Assembly (NCBI RefSeq): GCF_040687965.1
Contig: NZ_CP156084.1
Location: 324,501-388,500 of the forward strand
Length of the DNA stretch: 64,000 nt
From: Methylocystis echinoides
GTDB lineage: Bacteria > Pseudomonadota > Alphaproteobacteria > Rhizobiales > Beijerinckiaceae
Reading direction: 5' to 3'
Every line of letters starts with the position of its first letter. The first letter of the stretch is position 1. The notes beneath the pieces were generated by a model. The model was not told the DNA's origin. It saw only the letters and a list, made by a program, of their open reading frames with translations, and did no database searches. Below are positions 40,691 through 61,112 of the stretch, one piece after another. The translations under genes and the position numbers were made by a program.

Positions 40691-40699
40691 CGTCGGACC

Positions 40700-42210: not shown

Positions 42211-42279
42211 AGTCCATGCGGGCCTTTATCCAGAGCGCTCATCGCGCCGACGGGCAGGGAGGGGCCTCATGGCCGCCCC

Positions 42280-43170: not shown

Positions 43171-43348
43171 CGTCGTCCTCCCGAAGGGGAATTTGGGCGT
43201 CTTGCTCGAACTGCTTCCGCCGCGAGGGCCAGAAGGCGTAAGCGACGACGCCGAGAAAAATGAAGCCGAAGAAGATCAGGCCCCAGGAGGCTGCGAGCGC
43301 GCGCAGATACTCATAGGTCGATAAGGCTTCGGCCGCTGAGGCGTTCAT
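43163..43348 (-). CDS. ccoQ: cbb3 oxidase small subunit CcoQ
   Basis: A 61-residue single-helix protein: AASWGLIFFGFIFLGVVAYA followed by FWPSRRKQFEQDAQIPLRED. The helix then F-W-P-x-x-(K/R)-x-x-F and acidic tail are typical of CcoQ, which stabilises CcoP in the complex. It starts 4 bases after the ccoO stop. Confidence 0.93.
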   Translation of the reverse strand: MNASAAEALSTYEYLRALAASWGLIFFGFIFLGVVAYAFWPSRRKQFEQDAQIPLREDDDV

Positions 43349-43352
43349 GGGA

Positions 43353-44108
43353 TCACCTGATGTTGGCCTTGTCTTCGTAGAGCTTGAAATCCACGGAGAC
43401 GCCGAGGTGTTGCAGATAGGCGATGAGCGCGTCCTCTTCGGTCACGCCGCCCTTGGCGGGTGAATCGTTCAGGACGGCGTTCGGATAGCGCTTCTGCATC
43501 TCGGCCGCCGCCGCCGAGTCGGCGCCGTTCTGCGCCAGAAGATCGGCCTGCGCGTTCTCGATCTGCTCGTCGCTGTAGGGAACTCCCACGACGCGCAGGA
43601 GCCGCATCTGCTCGGCGAGATGCTCGGCCTTGAGCGGCGCCGAGGCCAGGAACGGATAGCCCGGCATGATCGAGGACGGCACAACCGACTGCGGGCTGCG
43701 CATATGATCGCGCTGCCAGTCGTTGGAATATTTGCCGCCGACGCGCGCAAGGTCCGGGCCGTTGCGCTTCGAGCCCCATTGGAACGGGTGGTCATACATG
43801 CTTTCGGCCGCGAGCGAATAATGGCCGTAGCGCTCGACCTCGTCGCGCAGCGGGCGGATCATCTGCGAATGGCAGGTGTAGCAGCCCTCGCGGACATAGA
43901 TGTTGCGGCCCGCAAGCTCGAGCGGCGTGTAGGGACGAACGCCCTCGACCTTCTCAATCGTGTTCTTCAGGTAGAAGAGCGGCACGATTTCGACGATGCC
44001 CCCGACCGACACGAGCAGCAGAATGCCGACGATGAGCAGGATCGAATTGGTTTCGAGGATTTTTTGGAACCCGCCGCCGGCGGGCGCGTGTTGAGAGGAT
44101 TGCGACAT
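43353..44108 (-). CDS. ccoO: cbb3-type cytochrome c oxidase monoheme subunit II
   Basis: A 251-residue protein with one N-terminal helix (about 22-46) and a monoheme domain: [18 protein letters not shown] contains C76-YT-CH80, and MPGYPFL gives the Met ligand. Other hallmarks are [20 protein letters not shown] and [18 protein letters not shown]. It receives electrons from CcoP and passes them to heme b of CcoN. It lies 12 bases after ccoN. Confidence 0.97.
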
Positions 44109-44120
44109 GGTTTCCTATCC

Positions 44121-45770
44121 TCACTCGGCAGGCAGGGGCGACGGGGCGAGCGCGCTTTCCGCGGCTGGCGAGGCGAGCGTCCGGTAGATGTTGTAGACCA
44201 TGATCAGCGCGCCGATCACGAACAGCCCGCCGCCGATGGCGCGGATCACATATTCGGGATGCAGCGCCTCCGTGGTCTCGACGAAGGAATATTCGAGGAA
44301 GCCTTGCGGGGTGTAGGCGCGCCACATCAGACCCTGCATGATGCCCGCGACCCACATCGACGTGATGTAGAAGACGATGCCGATCGTCGAAATCCAGAAG
44401 TGCCAGTTGACGAGCTTCAGCGAATAGAGCTGCCGGTTCCAGATCCAGGGAATGAGGCAGTAGAGCGCACCGAAGGACACGAAGGCCACCCAGCCGAGAC
44501 TGCCGGAATGCACGTGGCCGATGCCCCAGTCGGTGTAATGCGACAGAGCGTTCACCGCCTTCACCGACAGGAGCGGACCCTCGAAGGTCGACATGCCGTA
44601 GAAGGCGACCGAGACGACCAGCATGCGCAGCACGGGATCGGTGCGCAGCTTGTCCCATGCGCCGGAGAGCGTCATCAGGCCGTTGATCATGCCGCCCCAG
44701 GAGGGCATCCACAGTACGACCGAGAACACCATGCCGAGGGTCTGCGCCCAATCGGGCAGCGCCGTATAGAGCAAGTGGTGCGGGCCGGCCCAGATATAGA
44801 GGAAGATCAGCGACCAGAAATGCACGATCGACAGTCGGTAGGAGTAGATGGGCCGCCCGGTGCGCTTGGGGATGAAGTAATACATGATGCCGAGAAAGCC
44901 GGTGGTGAGGAAGAAGCCCACGGCGTTATGGCCGTACCACCACTGGATCAAGGCGTCCTGCACGCCGGCCCAGACGATGACCGACTGAGGCGAGAAGATC
45001 GACACCGGGATCTCGGCGTTGTTGCCGAGCACCAGCACGGCGACCGTCACCACGAAGGACAGGTAGAACCAGTTCGCCACGTAGATATGTGGCTCCTGAC
45101 GCCGCGCGAGCGTGAAAAGATAGACGAGCAGGTAGGTGACCCAGACGACGACGAGCCACAGGATCGCGTACCATTCCGGCTCGGCGTATTCGTGCCCGCG
45201 CGTGACCCCGAGCAGATAGCCCGTGCCGGCGATGACAATGAAGAAGTTGTAGCCGAGGATGACGAACCACGGCGCGAGATCGCCCGCGATGCGCGCCCGG
45301 CTCGTCCGCTGCATGACGTAGAAGGAGGTGGCCAGCAGGACATTGCCGCCGAAAGCGAAGATCACCGCCGATGTGTGCAGCGGCCGCAGGCGGCCGAAAT
45401 TGATCCAGGGCAGGTCGAGATTGAAGGCGGGATAAGCGAGCTCCAGCGCCAGATACAGTCCGACGATGAACCCCGCGACGCCCCAGAACAGCGAGGCGAT
45501 CGACGCGAATTTGATCGGTCCGTAGTTATAGTTCGGCCGCCCATCTATTGTGAGCGGCGGCAGTTGCGGCCCGCGCGCGTGATAGCGCAGCAGGATGGCG
45601 ACGACGGCGCCGATGGAGCCCAGAGAGAACAGCGCCGCGTGGAAGGCGAAGGCCGGCGTATAGGCTTTTGTCGCGATATAGCCCGTCGCAAGCGCAAGGG
45701 CGACGAAGATCGCGCTCAGCGATTTCTCGCTGAAGGTCATTTGTTTCGCGATGAGAGGGGGACGCTCCAT
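44121..45770 (-). CDS. ccoN: cbb3-type cytochrome c oxidase catalytic subunit I
   Basis: A 549-residue, 12-helix heme-copper oxidase subunit that reduces O2 at a b3/CuB centre with high oxygen affinity. Family marks include [20 protein letters not shown] (heme b His), [20 protein letters not shown] with the CuB His and Tyr region, [20 protein letters not shown] (CuB His-His) and [12 protein letters not shown] near the heme ligands. The ATG at 45770 has AGAGGA 7 bases upstream. It heads ccoNOQP and is controlled by the FNR/FixK boxes upstream, giving induction at low oxygen. Confidence 0.97.
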
Positions 45771-45873
45771 GATTCTGTCCTCTGGAGGTTCTTTTCTTGC
45801 AGACGCGAGAATTACGCTGGCGCCGGAAAAATGTGACAAAGTCGCCCCAGCGCGACTTCGATTCACGCTTGGC

Positions 45874-45879
45874 ATTGTA
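45874..45879 (-). promoter_or_regulatory. -10 element of the ccoN promoter
   Basis: TACAAT on the minus strand, with its centre 31 bases downstream of the centre of the proximal FNR box. That spacing places the box near -41.5, the class II position at which FNR/FixK contacts RNA polymerase. It predicts a leader of about 95 bases. Confidence 0.65.
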
Positions 45880-45900
45880 CAGCGCAATAGCAACAGAAAT

Positions 45901-45914
45901 TTGACTTCGATCAA
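45901..45914 (-). promoter_or_regulatory. Proximal FNR/FixK box of ccoN
   Basis: TTGAC-TTCG-ATCAA on the plus strand (TTGATCGAAGTCAA on the minus strand) matches the FNR/FixK consensus TTGAT-N4-ATCAA at nine of ten defined bases. It lies about 131 bases before the ccoN start and at -41.5 from the predicted transcription start. It should give low-oxygen activation of ccoNOQP. Confidence 0.8.
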
Positions 45915-46097: not shown

Positions 46098-46496
46098 TCA
46101 GCACGGATAGAAACGATGCGTTCCGAGCAGGAATCCAAGCGGTCCGTGGCGAAATTGCGCAAGCGGCCGCGCGAAGAACAGCCCGCTTCCCGAATAAGGA
46201 TAGCCATAATCACAGGTCGGGTCGGGACCGGGCGCGGGGGCTGGAGAGGCGTTCACGAGCTCCGCCCGCGACGCGAAGAAGCGTTCGCCGTTCAGCGCCA
46301 CCGGAATCCAGGTGCGGCCGTCCCCCAATATGGTGAGATCCGTATCGGCCGGGGCGATGACGGTCACCGGGCATCTGACCGTCGGCCGCGTGCGCAATTC
46401 GACAGGCGCATGGAGGGTAAGAATCTCGGCGAGGGCGGCGCCCGAAAAAGCGGCGAACGCAAGAAAGGCCAACACACATAAGAAAGACCGCCGCAT
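46098..46496 (-). CDS. Small secreted protein with SH3-like segment
   Basis: A 132-residue secreted protein: signal peptide to about residue 23 (SGAALA), then EILTLHAPVELRTRPTVRCP, DTDLTILGDGRTWIPVALNG and ERFFASRAELV. The pattern of short strands with a turn before W-I-P-V resembles bacterial SH3-like domains that bind wall peptides. The C-terminus has two Cys (PTCDYGYPYSGSG and the last residue). AGGGGGT lies 3-5 bases before the ATG at 46496. It diverges from the 13-kb macroglobulin run, sharing a 204-base promoter region, so joint regulation is possible. Function unknown. Confidence 0.65.
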   Translation of the reverse strand: MRRSFLCVLAFLAFAAFSGAALAEILTLHAPVELRTRPTVRCPVTVIAPADTDLTILGDGRTWIPVALNGERFFASRAELVNASPAPAPGPDPTCDYGYPYSGSGLFFARPLAQFRHGPLGFLLGTHRFYPC

Positions 46497-46700
46497 GGCA
46501 CCCCCTGCGCGCGGCGCGTGCGCCAGCGCAAATTCGACGAAGCGGGCGCAGTCTAAAAGAAAATTCCACGGGTGGAAATCGTCGGCAAGGAGACGCATAT
46601 GGCGATCGGGGACAAGCGGCCGAGCGCCCTCGACTCTTGCGATGAGCGCGCCCTAATGTCGATGGCAGGCTGGCGCGCCTGTCCTCTCCAGGGTGTTTTC

Positions 46701-49700
46701 ATGCGGCGACTTGCATTCTCCCTTTTGGCGGCCGGCGCGGCCTCGCTGTTTTTCCCCACTAATTCCTTCGCGAAGACCGCGGTCCCGGAGATGCAGACAA
46801 GCGCCGGGGTCGTAATCTCGCCGAAAGAGCTGGCCCTCGACCGCGACGGCGCGACGCTGCTGACCATCCCCGCCGCGGGGCGCTACGCGATCCGCGCCAA
46901 AAGCTCGACGGGCGCACGCATCGAACTGGTGGACATGATCGCGGGCCCCCTCGACTCCTCGGGGGCCGCCGGATTGCGCGACGGCCGCATCGACGCCTTG
47001 CTCGACAAGGGCGTCTACAAGCTGCGCATCGGCGCGGTGAAGGGCGCGACCGGCAAGGCGACGGTCAGCGTCGAGCCCTTTGCCGAGGTGGAGACGACGC
47101 GGCCGGCGCTGACGCCGAACGTCATTGCGCGCGGCGAGTTGGGCGACCTGCAGCAGCGCTCTTATGCGCTGGAGGTCAAAAGCGACGGCCCCGTCTATCT
47201 CGAGGCGGTCGGCCGCGCCCTTCAGGACCTGCGCCTGTGGGACGCCGACGGCGCGCTCGTCGATCTTCTCTTCGAGCGCACCACGGTTGAAACGCAGCCG
47301 GGCCATTCGATGAACCGGCTGCGGCTCGAAGGGAAAGTCGCGCCCGGCCGCTATGTCGTCACGGCCTATGGCGGCGAGAAGCTCGTCTGGTCGGACGGCG
47401 CCGGCGCGCAGCCCTTCCTGCTGCGTCTTGCCGAGCCGGCGCTGCTCGCGGCGGGCGTGGCCAAAGGCGTCATCGGTCCCTTCGGCGCCGCGCGCTACGA
47501 GGCGCCGGCACGCGACGACAGCTTCCGCCTGGAGCTGCCCGAGCAGGCGCCCGCGCGCATAGACGCGCGGCGCGGCGCGGGGCGCGACATGGCGACGATC
47601 GGCAAGGCCAGCCGCGCGCCCGTCGCCACGCTGCGTCTTGCGAACGACGGGACCGCGCCGGCGCGGATCGACGTCTCGGGCTATGAAGGCCAGGCTTATA
47701 CGCTGCGTGCGATGCGCCAATCCAATCGCGAGACTTTCGAGGCGGCGGGGCCGCATCTCGTCTCGCTCGAGGTGGCGGGAGAGGGCGGCGACGATCCGCC
47801 CGCGACGGCCCTCCTCGCGCGCATTGAAAGGGACGGCAAGACGCGCGTCATCGCCTCGGACCTGCCGCGCATCGGCGCCGGCAAGGCGTGGCGCGGCAAA
47901 TTCAATTTGCTCGGACCGGTGTCGCTGTTATTCGAGGCGACGAAAGACGGACCCGTTGCAATCGACGCCAAGGGCGTCAAGCTGCGCGCCGCAATCGAGC
48001 CGGCGCTGGGGTCGCTGGCGCCGCCGCGCGTCGGCCGGGACGCCGGCCGCTACGACCTTGCCGCGGGCTATTATCTCCTGACGCTCGAGCCCTTGGGCGA
48101 TCGGGCCGGCGTGGTCGACCTCACGCTCGGCGCGCCTGGTCTCGCGGTGTCTGCGCCGGCGCCGCTGCCGTCGCGCGCGTCCCTTTCCTTTGGCAAGCAG
48201 ACTCTCGAAGGCGACGGCGCCTATCTTATTCTCGCCAACACGGCGCCGGGGCTTCTCACCGGCCCGCGGGTCGTCGCCCTGCCGGCGACGCTCGACAAAG
48301 AGCCGCTCCCCCTGCGTCAGTCGGCCGGGCAGGAGATCGCGCTGCCTCTGCGCCTGCCGAAAGACGGCAAAGTCGCCGCGCGCGACGAGAGCGGCGCAGA
48401 TATTCCGCTCGCCTTCGCGGAAGAGAAGACGGAAAACGACCAGCGCTTCGTCACGGTGAAAATCGCGCCCCCCGCCGCAGCGCGCGCGCTGGGATTGATG
48501 TATCTGCCGCCGTCCGCCTCCGAGACGAGCCCGCAAGCCGCCGCCGCCGCCAAGGGGCCGCGCGCCTCGGCGGGCCGGCCGGCCTTTTTCGATCTGGCGC
48601 GCGACGAAACGAGGAGCCTCTCTTTCGACGTCGCCCAAGGCGGTCTCTATCGCGTCGAAACGCTTGGCCGGCTGAAGACGGCGCTGCGCGTCGGCGCGGC
48701 GGTCTCGCCGAAGCTCGGCGAGGGCGAGGCCAATGGGCCGGGCAACAACGGCCTGGTGACGGCCTATCTGCGCGCCGGCGCCTATCGCGCCGCCGTCACG
48801 GCGAAAGAGTCCGCTGGCCATCTCGGCCTTTCCGTCGCCCCGGCGACGCTGGCGTCGACCGCCAAAATCGTCGACGCGGGCGAAGCGCGCGCGACGCTCG
48901 CGCCGGGCAAGGGCGCCTTGGTTCCGATCGAGATCACGCGCGCCGGCGACTATCGGCTGGCGCTCGCGAGTTTGACGCAGGAGTGGCGCGCCCGGCTCGA
49001 GGACGCCGACGGCTGGCCGCTGACGGCGCCCGGCTCCTTCCGGCGCAAGACGCTGCATCTCGAACCGGGCGCCTATCGACTTGTGGTGAGCCCGGAAGAC
49101 GTCGAAGCGCGCATGATCGCGCGCCTCGCCCCCATCGTTCCGCCGCCGACGCTCGAAGGACATGGTCCGCATCCCCTGCCCTTCGAGGCGAGTCGGAAGC
49201 TGCAGTGGCGCGAGCCCCAGGCGAAGGACGCGCCGCGCGCGCCGGACGTCTGGCCTTTTGTGCTCGCGGGAGACTCCGACGTGGAGCTTTCGATCGGCGA
49301 AGGCATGATTGGAGAGGTGCTGAAAGGCGACGCGCTGATCGGCAAGGTCGCGGGCGACCGACCGTTCAAGAGCAGGCTCTCGGCGGGCGACTATCGCATC
49401 GAGGCGCGCAGCCTCGCTCATGACGACCGGCTCGATTACGAAATCATGCTTTCCTCGCCGCAGTTGCAGCCGGGCGCGCCGAAGCGCGTCGACCTGCCGG
49501 CGCGGCTCGACTTCAATCTCGCGCAGGAAAGCGTCGTCGACCTTTCGAGCTTCGGCGACAAGGAAACGATCGGCGTCTTGAAGACGGCGGCGGGCGACGT
49601 CGTGGAGCGGCTGGAGCCGCGCGCCAATGACTGGAATGTCGCGCTGGCGCGCCGTCTGCCGGCCGGCGCCTATCGACTGGAGCTGGAGGCGCTCGCCGCG

Positions 49701-51833
49701 ACGCGCGCGCCTGTCTCGCAGGATGCAAGCCAGGACGGCGGCCAGGAAGAAGCGGCGCGGGACAGCGAGGAAGAGACGAGCGAGGCCGCGGCCTCGGAGG
49801 AGAGCGCCGCGGCGGGCGAGTCCGAAGAAGCGGAGGCGGAAAGCGGCGTCGAGGTTCGTCTGGCGGCGCTCAGTGAGAAGGACGGACCCACGCTCGCCGC
49901 AACCGGCGCGACCGTTCTGTCCGGCGGCGAGGCGCAGCGTCTCATGTTGCCGGCGATAGCCGGCGACGCGCTGGCCCTCGTCGCCGCGCAATCGGCGAGC
50001 GAAGTCGCGCTGTCGATCGAGCGGCGCGGCGCCGACGGCGTCTGGCGCATGATCGGCGTCGAGCGCGGCCTTTCGCCCGTCGCCGCCTGGCCCGCCGCCA
50101 GCGACAAGAGCGCGTGGCGCGTAACTGTCTGGCCGCTGGGCGGCGGCCGTGAACCAATCGAGGTCGCCGCGCGCGCGATCGAGCGACGCGCCCAGCGCGC
50201 GGGCGAGATTTCATTCGACCCACAAGGAGACATCGCGCCGCCGCTCTGCGTCGCGCGGGTCGATGCGCCCAACGCCGCGCTCGTCGACGTCACCGCGCCG
50301 ACGGGCGTCCTTGCGGGCTCGGCGGCGGGCCGGCTGTTGCGCCCGGCGCGCGCCGGCGTGCTGGCGCCGCAGTCGCCGACGCTCTGGCTCGTTGCGCGCG
50401 ATTGCAAGGCGAAGGCCCATGTCGCCGCCTTCGACTGGCTCGGCGAGGCCGTCGCGCTCGATCTCGGCGAGGGCGACCGCGCCGTTCTGCCGCCGCTCGG
50501 CGCCCCGCGCGGCAAGACTCGGCTCTGGCTCGCGCGCTCGACCTTCGCGCAGCCGGCGATCGACTCGGGCGCCGGCATGGGCGTCGCCGACGGCGCCGCG
50601 CTCGCCCTGGCAGGCGATACTGCGCCACAAGTGTGGAACGCGAGCGGCCCCGCCGCCATGCGCGCGGCGCTTTCCGCCATCGACGTGGAGACGCGCGCGG
50701 CCGTCAGCGGCGGCGTCAGTTTCGCCGGCCTCGTGCCGCCGATGAGCGCGCAGCCGGTCGACATGGCGAATTCCGACGCCCCGCTCGCGCTCGACCTCGC
50801 CGGAGGGCTCGCCGCCTTTGTAGGAAAAACCGGCGTCTTCGGGGACGGCGCGGCGGTCTCGCGCGTCCTTCATGGCGCGGGATCGCGCGTGCTGCTCGTC
50901 AATATGACGGCGACGCCCCTGCCCGTCCGGATCGCACGCGCGCCCGACGCCAGTATGAAGCTCGACGCCAAGACCGCGCTCAAACGCTTCTTCGGCGCCG
51001 CCGGCCAGCTCGCGCTGCCCCTCGACGCGCAGCCCAACGACCGCCTGATCGTCATCGGCGCCGACGCGACCGTCGTCTCGACCATCGGACGCGTGCTGCG
51101 GGGACGCGACCTCGCGCTCGACGGCCCGGGAGAGGTCACTCTCGACTTCAAGCCCGGCCTCGTCGCCGCCTGGATCGAACGCGGCGGCGTCGCGCCCTGG
51201 CCGCAGGCGGCGGCGCGCGCGCTGGCGCTTCCCCAACGTGTCACGCTCGACGGCGCCGCCGCGCGCTTCGCGCTCAAACAAGGCGCGCCCGTCATGCTGA
51301 GCGTTTCGAGCGGCGCGCCGGCGCTGCTCTCCTTCACCCAGAACGGCAAGCGCGAGACGTTCGCTTTCCCCGCCGGCGTCGAATTCCGTCACTATGTGGC
51401 GGCGGGCGAGGCGACGCTCGATCTCTATGCGCCGCATGACGGCGCGCTCAGCGGGGCGCTCGACCTCGCGGCGCAGCCGGTGATCGAGGCGCATGAGGGG
51501 GTGAACGACGCCATCGCGGTCCCCTCCGGCGCCAGCGCGCTCTTCGCGTTTGAGACGAAGCGCGACGGCGAGATCGGCGTCGGCGTGCGCGCCGAACCCG
51601 ACCGCGTCAGCGCGCGTCTCATGGACGCGAGCGGCAAGACGTTGGCCGAGGGCGTCAATCAGGTCGCAAAGCTTGCGCCCGGCCGCTATTTCCTCGAAGC
51701 GCGCGCGCCGGCCGACGCCGGCGCGACGACCCTTCGCGTCGCGATCGTCGGCCTCTCGCCCCCGCCCGCCGCGCCGCCGGAAGAGGTGGTCGCCGAGCTG
51801 CTGGACAAGGCCGGGATGAAGAAGAGCAAATGA
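46701..51833 (+). CDS. Giant secreted beta-repeat protein upstream of alpha-2-macroglobulin
   Basis: A 1710-residue protein with a signal peptide (cleavage after NSFA near residue 24). I recognise no full-length family. It is made of repeated beta-rich modules: a phrase of the form (A/P/K)-G-x-Y-x-hydrophobic occurs at least ten times (PAAGRYAI, DKGVYKLRI, APGRYVVTA, AAGYYLLTL, RAGAYRAAV, RAGDYRLAL, EPGAYRLVV, SAGDYRIEA, PAGAYRLEL, APGRYFLEA), as in pre-peptidase C-terminal or MG-type sandwiches. A Glu/Ala/Ser linker at about 1005-1050 splits it in two. Only two Cys exist, about 52 residues apart (LCVAR, RDCKAK), a likely disulfide. AGGG lies 7 bases before the ATG. It leads a run with the macroglobulin and pbpC genes. 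Confidence 0.8.
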   Translation: MRRLAFSLLAAGAASLFFPTNSFAKTAVPEMQTSAGVVISPKELALDRDGATLLTIPAAGRYAIRAKSSTGARIELVDMIAGPLDSSGAAGLRDGRIDALLDKGVYKLRIGAVKGATGKATVSVEPFAEVETTRPALTPNVIARGELGDLQQRSYALEVKSDGPVYLEAVGRALQDLRLWDADGALVDLLFERTTVETQPGHSMNRLRLEGKVAPGRYVVTAYGGEKLVWSDGAGAQPFLLRLAEPALLAAGVAKGVIGPFGAARYEAPARDDSFRLELPEQAPARIDARRGAGRDMATIGKASRAPVATLRLANDGTAPARIDVSGYEGQAYTLRAMRQSNRETFEAAGPHLVSLEVAGEGGDDPPATALLARIERDGKTRVIASDLPRIGAGKAWRGKFNLLGPVSLLFEATKDGPVAIDAKGVKLRAAIEPALGSLAPPRVGRDAGRYDLAAGYYLLTLEPLGDRAGVVDLTLGAPGLAVSAPAPLPSRASLSFGKQTLEGDGAYLILANTAPGLLTGPRVVALPATLDKEPLPLRQSAGQEIALPLRLPKDGKVAARDESGADIPLAFAEEKTENDQRFVTVKIAPPAAARALGLMYLPPSASETSPQAAAAAKGPRASAGRPAFFDLARDETRSLSFDVAQGGLYRVETLGRLKTALRVGAAVSPKLGEGEANGPGNNGLVTAYLRAGAYRAAVTAKESAGHLGLSVAPATLASTAKIVDAGEARATLAPGKGALVPIEITRAGDYRLALASLTQEWRARLEDADGWPLTAPGSFRRKTLHLEPGAYRLVVSPEDVEARMIARLAPIVPPPTLEGHGPHPLPFEASRKLQWREPQAKDAPRAPDVWPFVLAGDSDVELSIGEGMIGEVLKGDALIGKVAGDRPFKSRLSAGDYRIEARSLAHDDRLDYEIMLSSPQLQPGAPKRVDLPARLDFNLAQESVVDLSSFGDKETIGVLKTAAGDVVERLEPRANDWNVALARRLPAGAYRLELEALAATRAPVSQDASQDGGQEEAARDSEEETSEAAASEESAAAGESEEAEAESGVEVRLAALSEKDGPTLAATGATVLSGGEAQRLMLPAIAGDALALVAAQSASEVALSIERRGADGVWRMIGVERGLSPVAAWPAASDKSAWRVTVWPLGGGREPIEVAARAIERRAQRAGEISFDPQGDIAPPLCVARVDAPNAALVDVTAPTGVLAGSAAGRLLRPARAGVLAPQSPTLWLVARDCKAKAHVAAFDWLGEAVALDLGEGDRAVLPPLGAPRGKTRLWLARSTFAQPAIDSGAGMGVADGAALALAGDTAPQVWNASGPAAMRAALSAIDVETRAAVSGGVSFAGLVPPMSAQPVDMANSDAPLALDLAGGLAAFVGKTGVFGDGAAVSRVLHGAGSRVLLVNMTATPLPVRIARAPDASMKLDAKTALKRFFGAAGQLALPLDAQPNDRLIVIGADATVVSTIGRVLRGRDLALDGPGEVTLDFKPGLVAAWIERGGVAPWPQAAARALALPQRVTLDGAAARFALKQGAPVMLSVSSGAPALLSFTQNGKRETFAFPAGVEFRHYVAAGEATLDLYAPHDGALSGALDLAAQPVIEAHEGVNDAIAVPSGASALFAFETKRDGEIGVGVRAEPDRVSARLMDASGKTLAEGVNQVAKLAPGRYFLEARAPADAGATTLRVAIVGLSPPPAAPPEEVVAELLDKAGMKKSK

Positions 51834-51864
51834 AAGACAGGCCTGTCGCTCGATTGCGCCATTC

Positions 51865-51894
51865 TTCCCTCTCCCCGCGCGCGGGGAGAGGGAA
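51865..51894. repeat. Perfect 30-base palindrome before the macroglobulin gene
   Basis: TTCCCTCTCCCCGCG followed directly by its exact reverse complement, with no loop spacer. It lies 31 bases after the giant protein stop and 24 bases before the macroglobulin start. It shares its arms with the hairpins at 20011 and 42186. In RNA it would fold into a strong hairpin that could trim or attenuate the transcript. Confidence 0.75.
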
Positions 51895-51918
51895 ACGCGG
51901 AAGCACGCTGGTTCACGG

Positions 51919-54900
51919 ATGAAAGTTGCTGCGATGAAGAAGACTTTGCTGCTTTGCCTGTGCGCGGCCTTTTCCTTTGCGACGCCCTCGCGCGCCGAGG
52001 CGCCGCCGGTCTTCGATCGCGCGCAGCGCGCCGATGGCGCGCGCATCGCGCCTGACCGCTTTTTGCGCGCCTATGATCCGCTTACCATCTTCTTCCCCGG
52101 CGACGTCGGCCCCAAGGCCGGCGGGCCTGAGGATGCGCCCACGAAATATGCGACGATCACCCCGCAGCCCGCGGGCGACTGGCGCTGGATCGGCCCACGC
52201 GCCTTGCAGTTTCGCCCGGCCGAGGCGTGGACGCCGCTTGCGCGCGTGAGCGTCAGGAGCGGCGGCGACGAGCGCAAGCTCGTGGCGCTGCTGCCGACGC
52301 CCTCCTCCACCAATCCGGCGGCCGACGCCGAGCCGACGCCAGAACTGACGCAGATCGCCCTCACCTTCGCACAGCCGATCGACGCGGCGGCGCTCTCGCG
52401 CCTTGTCTCCGTGGAGCTGCGCCCGGCGCCGGGCGTCTCGCCGCAGGGCGGGCAGATGCTCAGCCCTTCCGCCTATGATATTCGGCCGCTTGAACGCGGC
52501 GCGCGCGGCGACGAACAGACTTATGTCTTGCGGCTGCGCGACAGCATCGCGGACGGTCGCGTCGCCATTCTGCGTCTGAAGCTCTCCGACGAGCCCGGTC
52601 TCGACGACGAAACATACGAGCTGCGCATCCGCACCGCTCTGCCCTTCGCCGTTACGGAGGCCAGCTGCGGGCGCGGCTGGGACGATACGCATCTCGGCGG
52701 CGTGCTTCGCTGCGCGGCCAATGGATTCGCGCCGGCGCCCGAGACCGGCGAGGAGGAAGGCGGCGACGTCGCCTCGACCTATGCCGCGGCGAACAAACGC
52801 CGGCTGTCTCTTTCCTTCAACGCGCAGCCTGAAACGCTCGACATTTTGCGGGCGCGCGAAGCCTTGCGGATCACGCCGCCCGTCGACGACCTTGCCGTCG
52901 ACGCCGACGGCAATCATCTCAGGATCGGCGGCAAATTCCTCTCCGACACGGTCTACGAACTCACCGTCGCGCCCGGCGCGATGAAAGACGGTCGCGGGCG
53001 CGCATTGGCGGGAGCCTTCTCGCAGCGCTTCGCCTTCACGCGCGACATTCCCGCTTTGCAGTGGGACGCGGGCTATGGCCTCGCCGAGCGATTTGGCGCG
53101 CAGCTCCTGCCGTTGCGGGGCCGCGGCTACGACCGCGCCGACATTCGCATCCACGCCATTGATCCGCTCGCGCGAGATTTCTGGCCGTTCCCGCAACAGG
53201 GCGTCGAAACGATTGACGCCGAGGCGCCGCCGCTTCCCGGCAATGAGCCTGCGCGCTGGGCGGAGAGCGGCAATATCGAAGCCGAGGCGATCAAGGCGCG
53301 CATCAAGACATTGGGGTCGCCGGCCGTCTCGCGGCTCGTCGATCTGCCGATCAAACGCAATAGCGCCGATGCGAAATTCGGCGTCGATCTGAAGGAAGAT
53401 TTCGCGCGCATCGGCGGGCGCGAGCAGCCGGGAACCTATCTTGTCGGCCTGCGCGCGGTCGATCAGGACAAGCGCAAATGGCTGCGCGTTCAGGTCACGG
53501 ACCTTTCGCTCTCGGCGATAGAGGAGCCGACGCGCGTGCGCTTCGCCGTCACCTCGCTCGCGACGGCGCAGCCGGTGAGCGGCGCGCAAGTTCGCGTCGA
53601 GGGCGTCAAGGACGACAAATTCATCACGCTCGCGACAGGAACGACTGACGAGAACGGCTTCTTCTCCTGGTCGCCGATCAAGCGCGGCGACGGCGAGCTG
53701 CGCCGCGTCGTCGTCAGTAAAGGGCTCGATACGCTCGTCATCGATCCCGACAGCGCGCCGTCCGAATACGCCAGGGAACTCTGGTCGAAGCCGGAGGCGG
53801 CGTGGCTCTCCTGGGTCTCCGAGACCGATACGCCGCGCGAAGAGAAAGCGCGTACGCTGTGCCATGTCTTTTCCGAGCGGCCGATCTACCGGCCCGAGGA
53901 GCCGGCCCATATCAAGGGCTTCGTGCGCAGCTACAAGGGCGGCGCGCTCAGCCTCGCGAAGACCGGCGGCGCGCTCGTCGTCACGGGGCCGAACAATCAG
54001 GAATGGCGCATCCCGGTGAAGCTCGACGCGGCGGGCGGCTTCTATCACAAATTCGACGCGCAGACGCCGGCCACCGGCGACTATTCGGTCAAATTCGAGC
54101 CCGACGCCCCCAAGGCGAAGAAGGCCGAGAAGGATGAGGCCGCCGACGCCGCCGAAGGCGAAGGCGCGGAGGTGGCGCAGGATACGTCCTGCGGGACATT
54201 CACATTCAAGAAGGAAGCCTATCGTCTGCCGACCTTCGAGGTCGTGCTCAACGCGCCGCAGACGGTCGCGCTCGACACGACCTTCGACGTCGATCTGCTC
54301 GCCCGCTATTTCGCGGGCGGGCTCGCGGCGGATCGTCCGGTGAAATGGCGCGCGGCGCAATTCCCGCATGTTTTCACGCCGCCGAACCGCGAGGGGTTCC
54401 TGTTCTCGACCGATGCGCGCTTCTCCGGCGACGGCAAGTTCAAATCGACGGCCGTGCTCGAGCGCGACCAGCGTACCGACGCCGGCGGCGCCGCGCGCAT
54501 GACCTTCGACACCACGATCGAACCGACCGCGCAGCCGCGCCGCTATTCGATCGAGGCGACCGTCACCGGCGACGACGGGGTTGAAGTGCGCAATGTGCAA
54601 AACGTCATCGCCTTGCCGCCCTTCGTGCTCGGCGTGAAAACGCCGCGCTATGTCGAACGGCCTGGCGCGGTCACGCCCGAAATCATCGCTGTCGACGGCA
54701 AGGGCGAGAGCGTCACGGGCCTCGAGATGACGCTGCGCCTCATCAAGCGCAACTGGATTTCGACGTTGCAGGCGAGCGACTTCGCCCAAGGCGCGGCGAA
54801 ATATGTCACGCAGGTGCAGGACGAGACGGTCTTCGAGCAGAAGGTCGCCAGCGCCAAGGAGGCGCAGAAAATCGCGCTCGAAACAAAGAGCGCCGGCGTC

Positions 54901-57756
54901 TATCTCGTGCAGCTCGAAGCCTATGACCGCCTGAAGCGCCGGCAGCAGGTCAGCGTCGACTTCTTCGTCGGCGGCGACACGCCCGTGACATTCGCACGTC
55001 CGCCCGCGCAGTCGGCCACGATCACCACGGACAAGGAGAAATATGCGCCCGGCGAAACGGCGACGCTCGTCATTCAGTCGCCCTTCCAGAAGGCGCGCGC
55101 CCTCGCCATCGTGGAGCAGCCCAACGGCGTCTACGACTACAGCTTCGTCGACATCGACAATGGCTTCGGCCGCTTTCCGCTCACGGTGAAGAAGGAGCAA
55201 CTGCCGAAGCTCGCCATCCACTTCTTGATCATGCGCGGGCGGCTGGAGAACAGCGCCCCGCAGCCCTCCGCGAATTTCGACCAGGGCAAACCGGTCACCA
55301 TCGCGGCGACGAAATGGATCGAGGTGACGCCCGTCAAGAACATCGTCAACGTCAAACTGGAGCATCCCGGCAAGGCGCGGCCCGGCCAGGAAGTGGAAGT
55401 GGCGCTGCGCCTGACGGACGACGCCGGCAAGCCGCTTGCGGGCGAAGCGACTTTCTGGCTCGTCGACCAGGCCGTGCTGTCGCTCGCCAAGGAGCGCCCG
55501 CTCGATCCGCTGCCGGATTTCATCGTCGCGCGTGAAACGAAGATGGCGGCGCGCGACACGCGCAACATGGCCTTCGGAGTCATTCCGCTCGAAGAGATCG
55601 CCGGCGGCGACGAAGAGCTGCAGGAATGGGGCGCAGAGAATAACATTTCCGTACGCAAGAATTTCACGCCCGTGCCGATCTATCTTCCGAGCGTGAAGGT
55701 GGGCGACAACGGCGTCGCCAAGATCAAACTCACGCTTCCCGATACGCTCACTGTGTTCAAGCTGCGCGCGAAGGCGGTGAGCGGCCCGGATCGCTTCGGC
55801 GCGGCGGGCGGCGAAATGCTCATCCGACAGGACCTCGTCGCCCAGCCCGCGCTGCCGCGCTTCATCCGTCCCGGCGACGCCTTCGACATCGGCCTCGTGG
55901 CGCGCATCGTCGAGGGACCGGGCGGTGCCGGCAAGGCGGCGATCGCGGCGTCCGCGTTGAAACTCGCGGGCGAGAGCAGCCGCAAGATCGAATGGCCGCC
56001 GAACCGTCCGGTGCGCGTCGATCTAAGCGCCGACGCGCCGGCGTCCTTGCAGGACAGCGCAAAGATAAATTTCCGAATCGAGCGCGACGCCGATCACGCC
56101 CGCGACGCGGTCGAGATCGACCTTCCGGTGAAGCCCGACCGTGAGCCGGCGGCGCGCTACGAGGTCGTCGAAATCGCCCCCGGCGAGACCAAGACGCTTG
56201 CGGCCGTCGGCGCCCCGATGCGCGCGAAAACCTTTTCCCGCGACATCGTCGTCGCGGCCGATCCTGCGATCGTCAAACTCGTCGCCGGGCTCAATATGCT
56301 CGTGGATTATCCCTACGGCTGCACCGAGCAGCGGCTTGCCTTGTCGCGCGCCGCTCTGTCGCTGAATGGCTTCGCGCCAATCCTCGCAGCCGCGGGATTG
56401 CAGGACCGCGTCTCCGCGAGCGTGCGCAGCACGGCGCAGCAGATCGAGCAGTCAGTCGACAGCGACGGGCTTGTCGCCTTCTGGCCGCGGGCGCGCGGCA
56501 ATGTGCTGTTGACCGCCTGGTCCTACGCCTTCCTCGCGCGCGCCGAACGCGCCGGCGAGCCGGTGGACGCCACGCTGCGCGATCGCCTCGCCAATATTCT
56601 GCGCCTCTCCTTGCGTTCGGATTACGCGCGCCTGCTCGGCGGCGAAGAGTTGCGCGAACGCGCGGCGGCGCTCGCGGCGCTCGCGGAAGGCGGCAAGCTC
56701 GACGAATCCTATGTCGCCGAATTCGTGCGCCGCGCCGATTTCCTGCCCAATGAAAGCGTCGCCGAGCTCGCGGCGGCGGCGGCGCGGCTGCCGGACGCCG
56801 ATCAGCGCATTCTCGCCTCGCTGATGGAAACGATGTGGGGGCGCGTGAAATTTGCAAGCCGCAATGGCGCGCAGGTCTACGCCGGACAGGCGGGCGAACG
56901 CGCCTCCGAGTTGATCCTGCCCTCAGAGACGCGCAACCTCGCCGAAATGTTGCGCGCCGCCGCCCTCGCTGCGCCCGCCGACCCGCGCGCGCCGGCGCTG
57001 CGCGACGCGCTGCTGCGTCTCGGCGACGGCGACGGCTGGGGCACGACCAACGCCAACGCCAGCGCCATCGAAGCGCTCGCTGAAGGCTGGCGAAGGCCGG
57101 TGACGCCGCTCGCCGTCGCCTTCGCGCAAGGCGGCGCGCCGCAGACGATGACGATCGACGCCAATAATCCTGTCGCGCGTCACATGAGCGAGACCGACGC
57201 GCCGCTGACCATCTCCAACACGTCCAACGCGCCGCTCCTGGCGCTTGTCGAGACGCGCTACACGCCGGCGGAGCCCGGCGCCAAAGCCGAAGCCGCGAGC
57301 GAGGGCTTCGTCGTCACGCGGCAGAGCTGGCGCGTGAAGAACGGCGAGGCGCCGCAAAAGCTCGACGCCGCCGATAGCGTGATCCGCGTCGCGCAGGGCG
57401 ACGTCATCGAGGAGACGGCGGAGGTCGTGAACCCGGAAGATCGCACTTATGTTGCAATCTCTCTGCCGCTCGCGGCGGGCTATGAGCCCTTGAATCCCAA
57501 TATCGCCACGGCGCCCGCCGAAGCGCAGCCGTCGAGCGCCCCGACGCTCGCGCCGACATGGGTCTCCTATGGCGACGACCGCGTGCTCTACGCTTACGAC
57601 TTGCTGCCCAAGGGCAATTACCGCTTCGCCTTCCGCCTCAAGGCGCAAACGGCGGGCGCATACACGCAGCCGCCCGCGACGGCGGAGACGATGTATAAGA
57701 AAGGCGTTCGCGGCGCGAGCGCGGGCGCCCGGGTGGAGATCGCCAAAGCGCCATGA
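51919..57756 (+). CDS. Bacterial alpha-2-macroglobulin with thioester
   Basis: A 1945-residue periplasmic protease trap of the YfhM type. The signal peptide is MKKTLLLCLCAAFSFATPSR from an in-frame ATG at 51934; unlike E. coli YfhM there is no clear lipobox, so it may be soluble. MG domains follow, with CHVFSERPIYRPEEPAHIKG (MG3-4), the bait region around 1100-1250, and a TED domain with the thioester motif YGCTEQ (Cys1468 and Gln1471), fully intact. Proteases that cut the bait should be trapped covalently. It is coupled to pbpC by a four-base overlap, the usual pairing in which PBP1C repairs peptidoglycan while the macroglobulin blocks attack through the breach. Confidence 0.95.
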   Translation: MKVAAMKKTLLLCLCAAFSFATPSRAEAPPVFDRAQRADGARIAPDRFLRAYDPLTIFFPGDVGPKAGGPEDAPTKYATITPQPAGDWRWIGPRALQFRPAEAWTPLARVSVRSGGDERKLVALLPTPSSTNPAADAEPTPELTQIALTFAQPIDAAALSRLVSVELRPAPGVSPQGGQMLSPSAYDIRPLERGARGDEQTYVLRLRDSIADGRVAILRLKLSDEPGLDDETYELRIRTALPFAVTEASCGRGWDDTHLGGVLRCAANGFAPAPETGEEEGGDVASTYAAANKRRLSLSFNAQPETLDILRAREALRITPPVDDLAVDADGNHLRIGGKFLSDTVYELTVAPGAMKDGRGRALAGAFSQRFAFTRDIPALQWDAGYGLAERFGAQLLPLRGRGYDRADIRIHAIDPLARDFWPFPQQGVETIDAEAPPLPGNEPARWAESGNIEAEAIKARIKTLGSPAVSRLVDLPIKRNSADAKFGVDLKEDFARIGGREQPGTYLVGLRAVDQDKRKWLRVQVTDLSLSAIEEPTRVRFAVTSLATAQPVSGAQVRVEGVKDDKFITLATGTTDENGFFSWSPIKRGDGELRRVVVSKGLDTLVIDPDSAPSEYARELWSKPEAAWLSWVSETDTPREEKARTLCHVFSERPIYRPEEPAHIKGFVRSYKGGALSLAKTGGALVVTGPNNQEWRIPVKLDAAGGFYHKFDAQTPATGDYSVKFEPDAPKAKKAEKDEAADAAEGEGAEVAQDTSCGTFTFKKEAYRLPTFEVVLNAPQTVALDTTFDVDLLARYFAGGLAADRPVKWRAAQFPHVFTPPNREGFLFSTDARFSGDGKFKSTAVLERDQRTDAGGAARMTFDTTIEPTAQPRRYSIEATVTGDDGVEVRNVQNVIALPPFVLGVKTPRYVERPGAVTPEIIAVDGKGESVTGLEMTLRLIKRNWISTLQASDFAQGAAKYVTQVQDETVFEQKVASAKEAQKIALETKSAGVYLVQLEAYDRLKRRQQVSVDFFVGGDTPVTFARPPAQSATITTDKEKYAPGETATLVIQSPFQKARALAIVEQPNGVYDYSFVDIDNGFGRFPLTVKKEQLPKLAIHFLIMRGRLENSAPQPSANFDQGKPVTIAATKWIEVTPVKNIVNVKLEHPGKARPGQEVEVALRLTDDAGKPLAGEATFWLVDQAVLSLAKERPLDPLPDFIVARETKMAARDTRNMAFGVIPLEEIAGGDEELQEWGAENNISVRKNFTPVPIYLPSVKVGDNGVAKIKLTLPDTLTVFKLRAKAVSGPDRFGAAGGEMLIRQDLVAQPALPRFIRPGDAFDIGLVARIVEGPGGAGKAAIAASALKLAGESSRKIEWPPNRPVRVDLSADAPASLQDSAKINFRIERDADHARDAVEIDLPVKPDREPAARYEVVEIAPGETKTLAAVGAPMRAKTFSRDIVVAADPAIVKLVAGLNMLVDYPYGCTEQRLALSRAALSLNGFAPILAAAGLQDRVSASVRSTAQQIEQSVDSDGLVAFWPRARGNVLLTAWSYAFLARAERAGEPVDATLRDRLANILRLSLRSDYARLLGGEELRERAAALAALAEGGKLDESYVAEFVRRADFLPNESVAELAAAAARLPDADQRILASLMETMWGRVKFASRNGAQVYAGQAGERASELILPSETRNLAEMLRAAALAAPADPRAPALRDALLRLGDGDGWGTTNANASAIEALAEGWRRPVTPLAVAFAQGGAPQTMTIDANNPVARHMSETDAPLTISNTSNAPLLALVETRYTPAEPGAKAEAASEGFVVTRQSWRVKNGEAPQKLDAADSVIRVAQGDVIEETAEVVNPEDRTYVAISLPLAAGYEPLNPNIATAPAEAQPSSAPTLAPTWVSYGDDRVLYAYDLLPKGNYRFAFRLKAQTAGAYTQPPATAETMYKKGVRGASAGARVEIAKAP

Positions 57757-59990
57757 GAAAAGCGCGAATGAGCAGAGTTGCGCTCATCGCCGCCTGCGCC
57801 GCGACGGCGGCGGCGCTGTGCGGCGGAGCTCTGCTCTTCAGGGACGCCGCGGACGGCGCCGATCTTCGTGCGCCGCCGGCGACGCCGATCGTCTACGACC
57901 GCAACGGCGCCTATCTCGCGCAGATCGGACATGCGACGCATGACGCGCGGGAAGGCAAGCGCATCGATTACGGCTATTGGCCGCTCGAAAGAATCCCCGA
58001 GCGCGTCGCGCGCGCCACGCTCATTCTCGAAGACCGCCGCTTCTCCTTGCATCCGGGCGTCGATCCCCGCGCCGTGCTGCGCGCCTTGTGGAACAATCTC
58101 GCGCACGACCGACGCGCCGAAGGCGCCTCCACCATCGCCATGCAGGTCGCGCGCATGCAGGCGCCCCGTCCCCGCACGCTGCTCAACAAGTTGCGCGAGG
58201 CGGCGACCGGCCTTCTCCTCGTTGCGAGATACGGGCGGGAGGCGACGCTCGCCCATTATCTGCGGCTCGCGCCCTATGGGCTCGGCAGCCATGGCGTCGC
58301 GCATGCCGCGCGCTTTTATTTCGACAGGCCGGTCGACGATCTCTCCTGGGCGCAGACGGCGCTGCTCGCCGCCATTCCGCAATCGCCGGGCCGCATGAAC
58401 CTCACGCGCGCAAGCGGCCTGAAGCTCGCCGTGGCCCGCGCGCGCTATGCGATCGACCAGCTCGAAAAGGACGGCGCGCTCGACGCCACGCAAGGCGAAC
58501 TGGCGCGACGCGAGCTCGCCGCGATGCGCCCATTCGCGGCGAAGCGCCGTCCCGAGGCGCTGCATCTCGCCTTGCGCTACGAGCGTCTGGCGCGCGAGGG
58601 CCGCGTGCGCGCGGCCTCCCGTTACGATCCGCGCATCCACGCGACGATCGACCTCGTCGTCGAAGGCGAGACCATGCGGCTCGCGCGGCGTTATCTGTCG
58701 ATCTTCCGTCACGCGGGCGCGCGGCAGGTTGCGGTGATGGTCGCCGAGCGCGGGTCCAACGCCGTCATCGCCGACGTCGGATCCGCCGATTACGACGATC
58801 CGCGCGCCGGCGCCTTCGATTTCACGCGGGTGATGCGCTCGCCGGGTTCGACGCTGAAGCCGTTCGTCTATGCCCTCGGCCTGGAGCGGGGCGCGCTGAA
58901 GCCGACCGATCTCCTCCAGGACATGCCCGAAGGCGCCTCCGGCGTCGCCAACGCCGACGGACTTTACCTCGGTCCGATGACGCCGCGGCAGGCGCTCGCC
59001 AATTCCCGCAATGTGCCCGCGACCAACCTCCTGCGGCGGGTGGGACTCCTCGCAAATTTCGACTTCCTCCACGAACTCGGACTGCACAATCTCGATGCGC
59101 CGGCGGAGAGCTTCGGAATTTCGATGGCGATCGGCGCCCTTCCGACGCGGCTCGAGGATCTGATGCGCGCTTACGCGGCGCTTGCCGACGACGGCGTCAT
59201 GCGAGACCTTTCCTTTGCCGCGGATGAACGAAAAGCCCCGCCGCGCCGCGTGATGTCCATCGATACGGCGCGGCTCGTCACCTCGTTCCTTTCTGACCCA
59301 CAGGCGCGTCTCCCGTCCTTCCCGCGTTACGGTCCGCTGGAATATCCTTTCGCCGTCGCTGTGAAGACGGGCACCTCGCAGAATTATCGCGACGCCTGGA
59401 CCCTCGCCTTCTCCAATAGATACATCGTCGGCGTCTGGATCGGGCGCGCCGACGCCAGCGGCATGCGCGGCCTCGCCGGCGCCAATTCGGCCGCGCGTCT
59501 CGCCCATGCGGTGATGGCGGGGCTGCATGGCGCGCGGCCGGGGGAGATTGCGCCAGAGACCTTTCCGCCGCCGCCGGGGCGCGTCGCAGTCGATCTTTGC
59601 CGCGTCGACTCGGGTCCCGACTGCCCGCTTTCCTTGCGCGAATGGGTAAAGCCGGAAGAAATCGCCGCCACGCCCAATGCGTCGACGCTGGCGCATCTGG
59701 ACGATGCGGTTTCAGCAGACGCGGGCGCTCTCGTGATCGCCACGCCCGAACACAATATGCATGTGTGGCGCAACCCGGAGCAGCCGGCGGCGCTCAACAA
59801 GCTCGCGCTGAAACTCGCCAACGGCGCCGCCAATTCGCAGATCGTGTGGACCGTCGACGGCGCGCCTGTCGCGGTGGCGCAGGCGGATGAGACCGTCTTC
59901 TGGCCGATGACGCCCGGCGCGCACCGCATTCAGGCGCGGCTGCCGTTGGCGCCGGTCGCATCACGGCCGGTGCGCGTGACGGTCGAGTAA
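57753..59990 (+). CDS. pbpC: Penicillin-binding protein 1C
   Basis: A 745-residue class A-type penicillin-binding protein. One N-terminal helix is followed by the GT51 transglycosylase domain (ILEDRRFSLHPGVDPRAVLR, catalytic Glu93; GASTIAMQVARM). The transpeptidase domain has Ser366-T-L-Lys369 in SPGSTLKPFVYAL, the SRN motif in LANSRNVPATN and KTGTS in VAVKTGTSQNYRDAW. The last 90 residues are the BiPBP C-terminal sandwich (NKLALKLANGAANSQIVWTV). All catalytic residues are kept. It is translationally coupled to the macroglobulin gene. Confidence 0.96.
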   Translation: MRKARMSRVALIAACAATAAALCGGALLFRDAADGADLRAPPATPIVYDRNGAYLAQIGHATHDAREGKRIDYGYWPLERIPERVARATLILEDRRFSLHPGVDPRAVLRALWNNLAHDRRAEGASTIAMQVARMQAPRPRTLLNKLREAATGLLLVARYGREATLAHYLRLAPYGLGSHGVAHAARFYFDRPVDDLSWAQTALLAAIPQSPGRMNLTRASGLKLAVARARYAIDQLEKDGALDATQGELARRELAAMRPFAAKRRPEALHLALRYERLAREGRVRAASRYDPRIHATIDLVVEGETMRLARRYLSIFRHAGARQVAVMVAERGSNAVIADVGSADYDDPRAGAFDFTRVMRSPGSTLKPFVYALGLERGALKPTDLLQDMPEGASGVANADGLYLGPMTPRQALANSRNVPATNLLRRVGLLANFDFLHELGLHNLDAPAESFGISMAIGALPTRLEDLMRAYAALADDGVMRDLSFAADERKAPPRRVMSIDTARLVTSFLSDPQARLPSFPRYGPLEYPFAVAVKTGTSQNYRDAWTLAFSNRYIVGVWIGRADASGMRGLAGANSAARLAHAVMAGLHGARPGEIAPETFPPPPGRVAVDLCRVDSGPDCPLSLREWVKPEEIAATPNASTLAHLDDAVSADAGALVIATPEHNMHVWRNPEQPAALNKLALKLANGAANSQIVWTVDGAPVAVAQADETVFWPMTPGAHRIQARLPLAPVASRPVRVTVE

Positions 59991-60009: not shown

Positions 60010-60762
60010 TTATCTTGCGACCTGTTGCCCGACCGACAAGCCCGTCTGCCCAACCGGGTTCAATTGCTGGAAGTAAGACATGCCGACTTTGAGGGCGGAA
60101 TCGCCAACAACGATCACGTCTCCGGGCGCGACTTCGGGATCGTCGGCCTGTCCACTGCGGATAGCGGCGAGATCATAGGGGATCATGCTCCTCTGGCCGT
60201 CCACATTTCTAAAAACGGTGACACTATCCGAGGCCATGTTCCGGTCGAGGCCGCCCGCCTTCGCAATCGCCTGCTCGAGCGTGTCCCGCCCACGCAGCGG
60301 GTACACGCCCGGCGTCTTCACCGCGCCCTCCACGGTGACGCGGCGGCTGTTGTATTCCGTCACGACGACGGTGACTTGCGGCGACCGCATATAACCGGCG
60401 TCGAGGCGTTTCTGGATCTCGCGCTCCAAATCCGCTGAGGTCTTGCCTGCCGCAGGAGTGGCGCCGATAAGGGGAAGATTGATCGTGCCGTCCTCTGCGA
60501 CCGGCACGGCCCTGGAAAGATCAGGCGCTTTGAAGACGGTTATCTGCACGACATCCATCGGCCCGATCATGTAGCTCGGGCCGCCGGGTTTGGAGGCGGC
60601 GACAACGCGGCTCTCGACTTTGGCGGCAGCTGTCTGTGGCTGATCCGGCGACGCCATGCTCGCCCCATCGCCGGGCATCCCATTGCAGCCGCCCAGTCCT
60701 GCGATGACCGCGCTGACGACAGCTACGGTCACGGTTCGGACTTTGTGCAGCGAAAGCTTCAT
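60010..60762 (-). CDS. Wza-type polysaccharide export lipoprotein
   Basis: A 250-residue outer-membrane lipoprotein of the polysaccharide biosynthesis/export family. The signal ends in GLGGC (lipidation near Cys26). The Poly_export domain begins SYMIGPMDVVQITVFKAPDL and is followed by one or two SLBB domains (VTVEGAVKTPGVYPLRGRDT, LEQAIAKAGGLDR). It is the short form without a long transmembrane helix barrel. No polysaccharide synthase genes are in view, so it is an orphan here. The start at 60762 is preferred (GGTGAAG just upstream) to 60780. Confidence 0.88.
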   Translation of the reverse strand: MKLSLHKVRTVTVAVVSAVIAGLGGCNGMPGDGASMASPDQPQTAAAKVESRVVAASKPGGPSYMIGPMDVVQITVFKAPDLSRAVPVAEDGTINLPLIGATPAAGKTSADLEREIQKRLDAGYMRSPQVTVVVTEYNSRRVTVEGAVKTPGVYPLRGRDTLEQAIAKAGGLDRNMASDSVTVFRNVDGQRSMIPYDLAAIRSGQADDPEVAPGDVIVVGDSALKVGMSYFQQLNPVGQTGLSVGQQVAR

Positions 60763-61112
60763 GACTTCACCCAAATACATATCTGTCCAATCGTCAGAGT
60801 ACGTCAGTTAAGGAACCCTTGAAAGCGCCTATTCTGCGGCATTTCTGATCACAATCGGCGAAGCGCGACGATCCGCCGTCGCCAGCCCCGCCACGCCGAG
60901 GCAGGAAAGTTGCATGGCGGCGGGGCGCGCGTCATCGATCAACCCGCCCGACGCTACGCGCATCTACGTACGCCAATATGGCGCCGTCCTTCACCCGCTT
61001 GGGTGACATCCGGCGAGCCAAATTGGCGCCTATCGGCGTTTGCGGCCCCGCGCTAAGACCACGCGTGGAGGCTCGCAATCGGAGCTTCTCCTTAAATCCG
61101 AAGGGATTATTC
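60763..61112. other. 350-base divergent region between the export lipoprotein and the repeat-protein gene
   Basis: No gene is seen on either strand. It holds AAGGGA 6 bases before the plus-strand gene at 61113, and GC-rich stretches around GCGGCGGGGCGCGC. A TTGAAA near 60819 is a possible -35 without a convincing -10. I see no palindrome strong enough to call an operator. Confidence 0.5.

Follow-up and report, generated by a model that had tools for sequence, protein, structure and literature searches.

What does a very large secreted protein do at the head of a gene pair that encodes an alpha-2-macroglobulin (A2M) and a penicillin-binding protein 1C (PBP1C)? This question is raised by a three-gene envelope cassette of the methane-eating bacterium Methylocystis echinoides, found in a stretch of 64,000 nucleotides, which is called the window here. 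A2Ms trap proteases after bait cleavage, and PBP1C makes peptidoglycan. A first-pass annotation had described a run of three genes on one strand, with 85 bases between the first two and an overlap between the last two, and we confirmed the open reading frames (ORFs) at these places.

46701..51833, + strand: giant secreted protein with an array of beta sandwiches, 1710 aa (ATG at 46701, stop at 51833); no LprI domain; a signal peptide is seen by eye, an acidic low-complexity linker lies at about residues 1005-1045, and there is a short helix at the C-terminus
51834..51918, no strand: gap between giant and A2M, 85 bases, with a 26-base palindrome
51919..57756, + strand: A2M, 1945 aa, with a bait-region domain and a CTEQ thioester motif; signal peptide by eye, no lipobox (rule-based)
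57753..59990, + strand: PBP1C, 745 aa, with transglycosylase, transpeptidase and BiPBP_C domains

The A2M stop and the PBP1C start overlap by 4 bases. An in-frame GTG at 46572 is an alternative start of the giant, giving 1753 aa, and wide conservation starts only at 46701. The palindrome in the gap (51867-51892) occurs at 18 places in the genome, against none for a reversed-pattern control. It is a dispersed repeat, by which a gap that is otherwise short seems to have been widened. The spacing is smaller in most Methylocystis relatives, with about 15 bases or less from the giant match to the start of the A2M match; one locus (L043, about 125) is an exception. The outer neighbours of the trio, all on the other strand, are a cbb3 oxidase cluster, an ORF of 166 aa and a polysaccharide-export gene. 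The oxidase cluster (37846-45914, minus) is ordinary, with a COX1-type subunit, FixO, FixP, a FixG-like protein and a heavy-metal ATPase. Between it and the giant, the 166-aa ORF (46098-46598, minus) has a signal peptide by eye and no Pfam match, and by eye it resembles a bacterial SH3 domain. The polysaccharide-export protein (Poly_export and SLBB; 60010-60780, minus) lies directly past PBP1C. A pattern scan found no promoter-like sites (0.6 expected) and 23 terminator-like sites (11.7 expected, sd 3.3); the latter are scattered over both strands and also lie inside genes, and the scan was set aside as evidence.

The giant had been described in the first-pass annotation as a beta-repeat protein that matches no known family. 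In profile searches with the window copy, the best Pfam or NCBIfam match had an E value of 0.26 and the best PDB sequence one of 0.31, which amounts to no family match. Alignment profiles of its two halves found no PDB sequence better than E 0.7, and neither half contains a Pfam domain or a recognised enzyme domain. The statement on families thus holds for the window copy but not for its relatives, many of which have a recognisable N-terminal LprI domain. The beta-repeat description is borne out by AlphaFold2 models together with a profile self-comparison. The models, built with 42 of 49 aligned giants as homologues (the alignment omitted 10 of the 58 loci described below, which were broken or cut), consist of beta sandwiches with a mean pLDDT of 89.1 for residues 24-1003 and 90.0 for residues 1046-1710, and the sole helix of at least four residues lies near the C-terminus. 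Strand spacing in these models suggests about 15 modules of roughly 100 residues. The modules are related to one another, since 32 of 351 non-neighbouring segment pairs reached a probability of at least 50 in the self-comparison, against 0 of 351 with reversed columns, where segments overlap and pairs are therefore not independent. The acidic linker falls in the least conserved block of 50 residues (0.22 against a mean of 0.56 over 22 non-redundant sequences).

Foldseek matches of high probability included the collagen-binding (PPC-like) modules of ColG, CUB domains of PCPE-1, neuropilin and the SIDT1 ectodomain, but every one of these had a low TM-score; the match to 5iku had a probability of 1.00, yet its TM-score by target was just 0.29 and 0.34 over two modules. 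Several higher-ranked matches were set aside as long, loose alignments. The modules may therefore share a fold with bacterial pre-peptidase C-terminal/collagen-binding and CUB-type beta sandwiches, from which the window giant differs by having no Pfam domain in either half. The PPC profile PF04151 itself did not match the window giant, and it matched 5 of 42 giants at E <= 0.1 (best 4.1e-5). Two other identities were rejected. The giant is not a diverged A2M, since a profile-profile comparison of the giant and A2M alignments gave a probability of 0.7 percent, and Foldseek matches of its N-terminal part to complement C5 and A2Ms were discounted because of rmsd values of 35-41 A and TM-scores of 0.05-0.08. 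An anti-phage system was also rejected, as neither the three window proteins nor one Rhizobium giant matched PADLOC at E <= 0.01 and no match was found in phage records.

Of 36 other genomes of the same genus, 28 contain the giant, which is therefore no chance ORF; four of the 28 have it as two fragments, and one of these four has an internal stop. Among the eight same-genus genomes without it, five are less than 82 percent complete and three are more than 90 percent complete; in these three, either the search overlooked the cassette or the organisms do without it. None of 24 genomes from other families of the order, taken in the same draw, had the giant. A scan of named genomes with two conserved peptides, which may miss distant giants, gave 58 giant loci, mostly in Methylocystis, Methylosinus, Rhizobium and Acetobacteraceae, and further in Methylocella, Microvirga, Inquilinus and one Candidatus Eisenbacteria bin, among others; many of these loci are close relatives (Methylocystis, Rhizobium), so that locus counts are not independent events. 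In even draws, which scored at most two candidates per genome and so give lower bounds, giants were found in 2 of 397 genomes of the order, both of the window's genus, and in 5 of 398 of the phylum, namely two of the window's genus, G943 with the trio, G851 with a giant cut off on a 4 kb contig, and G1120. The G1120 match was rejected as false, because it is a 502-aa ORF matching one module kind and not the whole family. Seven Rhizobium plasmids encode the giant. On two of them, whose annotation was examined, the trio has different neighbours. One annotation names the giant ‘lysozyme inhibitor LprI family protein’ and the other ‘hypothetical protein’, followed by ‘MG2 domain-containing’ and then ‘transglycosylase domain-containing’ proteins.

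An A2M gene comes next after the giant gene, on the same strand and at most about 0.8 kb away, at 54 of the 58 loci, and at the remaining four (L059, L082, L084, L087) the contig stops within the giant. The expectation that homologues are almost always adjacent to macroglobulin genes was thus borne out, and the opposite outcome, homologues lying mostly away from such genes, was not seen in the 58-locus scan. PBP1C is next in 47 of the 49 loci with room for it, and five contigs stop before its position. At the two other loci (L042, L071) no PBP1C lies in the next 3-4 kb, and each genome has an orthologue elsewhere, so the bond between giant and A2M looks tighter than that between A2M and PbpC. 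Beyond the 58 loci, the full trio was also found at L092, L093 and L142. The last, from the phylum draw, has a shortened giant before A2M and PBP1C (L142:3764-7774, 1337 aa), in which the middle modules are absent and the N-terminal array and the last modules are kept. One further genome has the giant (L134) and A2M-PBP1C (L094) on two contigs; the giant is located at a contig end, and the L094 contig stops within the A2M.

We also surveyed the neighbourhoods of A2M genes in 385 genomes of the class. Besides the window's genome, 41 genomes had an A2M at E 0.001, and 40 of them were taken in, with G495 omitted as a weak short fragment. A profile of the giant-linked A2Ms separated three genomes at 1739-2528 bits from 37 ordinary ones at 58-218 bits. 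All three genomes of this clade have the giant, two directly upstream of the A2M and one on another contig (L134). No giant was found at the 37 ordinary A2M loci, 31 of which have at least 4 kb of readable upstream sequence, and 35 of the 37 have a PBP in the stretch examined. This survey, proposed in the first-pass annotation, therefore ties the giant to one A2M clade (3/3). An ORF of 1315 aa just upstream of one ordinary A2M (L100) was rejected as a giant, having no match to the giant profile; it has a leucine-rich-repeat match just under the cut-off.

Protein distances over 45 trios (12 listed loci and 4 without PBP1C were dropped) gave correlations of 0.981 for giant and A2M, 0.980 for giant and PBP1C, and 0.961 for A2M and PBP1C, against a maximum of 0.251 in 500 permutations. 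The trees agree in the same way at strong splits (support 0.95), with 28 common between giant and A2M (of 34 and 32; 1 conflict), 22 between giant and PBP1C (of 34 and 27; 3 conflicts) and 21 between A2M and PBP1C (of 32 and 27; 2 conflicts). Judged from these sequence comparisons, the giant is co-inherited with one A2M clade and its PBP1C, and it is apparently an obligate partner of that clade. In the A2M tree, the trio of a record named Mycobacterium sp. KBS0706 (L064) groups with the Inquilinus limosus locus L070, and the organism name is probably wrong.

The window A2M matched PF00207, PF07703, PF01835 and PF17973 (A2M, bait-region, MG2 and bMG10) above the cut-offs and PF11974 (bMG3) just under its cut-off. 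It is the only PF00207 match found in its genome, and its thioester motif is PYGCTEQ. The PBP1C matched TIGR02073 at E 5.6e-129 with 431.9 bits, below the cut-off of 494.2 bits. The thioester Cys is kept in 35 of 51 readable A2Ms of the clade, the window included, and missing in 16, where it is replaced by Ser in all eight Rhizobium loci and by Gly in eight loci with Acetobacteraceae-type names. The printed A2M tree, drawn without branch supports, requires at least three losses provided that Cys was never regained. PBP1C lies downstream in 15 of the 16 thioester-less loci, and L071 has it elsewhere. In the available part of PMC5764988, A2Ms are divided into Type I (thioester and pbpC) and Type II (no thioester, mag operon), and the thioester-less members of the clade fit neither. 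One Rhizobium genome (G812, locus L048) has two bMG10-containing A2Ms, one in a giant cassette without the thioester Cys and the second on another contig.

An N-terminal LprI domain (PF07007) was found on the giant in 23 of the 58 loci, with a profile derived from 19 of these 23, and also at L092 and L134. Pfam LprI, searched against 10 giants, gave three matches above the cut-off and two more just below it, and four cysteines are invariant among 14 aligned domains. PF07007 is not in the window giant, and no LprI was found on the Methylocystis, Methylosinus, Methylocella, Inquilinus and Microvirga giants, nor on L074 and L086. Among loci whose N-terminus can be read, it is thus absent from the window's and from 26 others (25 with and one without the thioester Cys). 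Counted against the thioester, LprI is present in 13 of 14 thioester-less loci and 8 of 33 with Cys; this association is suggestive, uncorrected for descent, and was set aside as evidence.

The same domain was found at the N-terminus of ordinary A2Ms. With the profile of the giants' LprI, two of the 37, L116 and L121, matched at E 1.6e-18 and 5.1e-16 (above and below the Pfam cut-off, respectively), and an LprI search found a third, L133; the profile of that search contained L116, L121 and L092, whose matches therefore follow from how it was built. Around L116, L121 and L133 the readable flanks contain no giant, but for L116 they reach just 2.1 kb upstream. The domain is thus borne by the giant in one lineage and by the A2M in others, which is evidence that both proteins act in one process. 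Ordinary alphaproteobacterial A2Ms beside a PBP at L108, L113 and L122 carry an N-terminal PAN domain where others have LprI, which suggests that binding domains are exchanged at the N-terminus of A2Ms. LprI was present in at least 55 of the 385 surveyed genomes, a count that missed the window genome's own LprI (one match over the cut-off, on the same contig and unlinked to the cassette), so the widespread domain alone is no marker of the cassette.

Pfam labels PF07007 as ‘lysozyme inhibitor’, after the mycobacterial protein. The N-terminal domain of many giants belongs to the same family as that of M. tuberculosis LprI and Salmonella ScwA, but in the clade it is fused to a beta array of about 1700 residues or to an A2M. 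According to the available part of PMC7933661, deletion of ScwA left lysozyme sensitivity unchanged, and ScwA affects the lytic enzyme MltD. Because of this missing lysozyme phenotype, it is doubtful, as far as that part of PMC7933661 goes, that LprI is a lysozyme inhibitor.

Two published systems may be compared with the cassette. E. coli A2M has a lipoprotein anchor. The window resembles the Type I A2M-PbpC pair of E. coli and Salmonella in the bait and MG domains, the CXEQ thioester and the pbpC gene directly downstream. It differs in that no lipobox was found in its A2M by rule, the clade has an upstream giant at every readable locus, and its A2Ms are far from the ordinary alphaproteobacterial ones, with the thioester Cys missing in the proportion given above. 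Our starting annotation called the A2M-pbpC pair a known defence module; the pair is indeed known, but its joint role as a response to envelope breach was proposed from gene adjacency and is, in the available part of PMC5764988, a published hypothesis only. The Type II or Mag system of Pseudomonas (MagA-F) likewise has an A2M beside partner proteins, and some members of our clade are likewise thioester-less. The same part of PMC5764988 states that Mag partners bind and stabilise the A2M, so that the stability and location of an A2M can hinge on proteins of its operon. The cassette differs in keeping pbpC and in having one giant instead of several small partners, and in the window the thioester is present. 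Judged by the identities of its neighbours, the window A2M is not in a six-gene mag operon.

It is very likely that the giant, A2M and PBP1C are functionally linked. With moderate confidence, we propose that the three genes form one conserved envelope-protection cassette, in which the giant is a dedicated periplasmic scaffold or partner of the A2M in the response to envelope breach. A scaffold, a bait-presenting coat and a wall tether had been put forward as possible roles in the first-pass annotation. The linkage can be read from the sequences, from which we infer binding and mechanism. The giant would be exported to the periplasm, as the signal peptide seen by eye suggests, where its modules may support the A2M as scaffold or co-inhibitor. 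On a breach of the outer membrane, invading proteases would be trapped by the A2M and the wall patched by PBP1C, and the giant would hold or concentrate the A2M. Giants that bear LprI may also bind wall-cutting muramidases (lysozyme or lytic transglycosylases), and perhaps the giant was ancestrally also aimed at them. In the Methylocystis copy, where the LprI arm is missing, the role as A2M partner alone would remain. The muramidase arm cannot be the core role, since the window giant and 26 other loci have no LprI. We put forward only tentatively, as a rather unlikely extension, that giant and A2M form a two-armed periplasmic inhibitor complex with an A2M arm against proteases and an LprI arm against muramidases. 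Peptide- and glycan-cutting attackers would then be neutralised at the same time, with wall repair by the linked PBP1C, and the clade could afford the repeated absence of the thioester because part of the holding would fall to the giant.

Another explanation, possible but doubtful in our view, is that the giant merely stabilises or tethers the A2M, as MagB does for MagD, with no inhibitor role of its own. It would keep a lipobox-less A2M at a membrane or wall site, and LprI would be a wall-binding or positioning module. The giant does adjoin the A2M, LprI can be absent without loss of the cassette, and the lipobox rule fires in only 2 of 55 A2Ms of the clade (L055, L062), so that 53 of 55 resemble MagD, which has no lipobox in the available part of PMC5764988. 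However, neither a lipobox nor a membrane anchor is seen by eye in the window giant, and the rule fires in 4 of 49 giants (L053, L055, L062, L066) without being kept in their sisters. The giant is also far larger than MagB, given as 589 residues in that part of PMC5764988. Moreover, the rule fires in none of the 37 ordinary alphaproteobacterial A2Ms, a few of which have no readable N-terminus; lipobox absence is therefore not special to the giant-linked clade, and we dropped it as the giant's raison d'être.

It is very unlikely that the giant is a surface or periplasmic decoy or bait, a cleavable array that occupies proteases or is cut first, with the A2M as executor. A large modular array would suit such a part, and a protease might cut at the acidic linker, which falls in the least conserved block, but the modules are conserved and confidently folded in the models (pLDDT about 90), and there is no sign of linker cleavage. 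That the giant is an unrelated envelope structural protein or adhesin merely sharing the operon fits module folds like those of generic binding domains (collagen-binding/PPC and CUB types). We consider this very unlikely as well, given its joint inheritance with a single A2M clade in several families as well as on plasmids, the lack of giants at all 37 ordinary A2M loci, and the exchange of LprI between giant and A2M. The reading as a dedicated partner of the A2M in envelope protection is preferred here.

The A2M-PbpC pair is already known; the literature search turned up neither the giant family nor its apparently obligate tie to one A2M clade, nor the exchange of LprI. That search was partial, with most subscription literature outside its scope, and in it no paper on LprI together with macroglobulin was found, nor, among the matches listed, a giant partner of A2M. 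The giant, as an apparently obligate third partner whose wall-hydrolase-linked domain also occurs on some A2Ms, gives a concrete handle on the A2M-PbpC idea, and the clade departs from the rule of a thioester in pbpC-linked A2Ms. The two-armed complex, if true, would make a third class of A2M, neither Type I nor Type II. Natural contrasts, with thioester kept or lost and LprI kept or lost, are at hand in culturable Rhizobium and methanotrophs.
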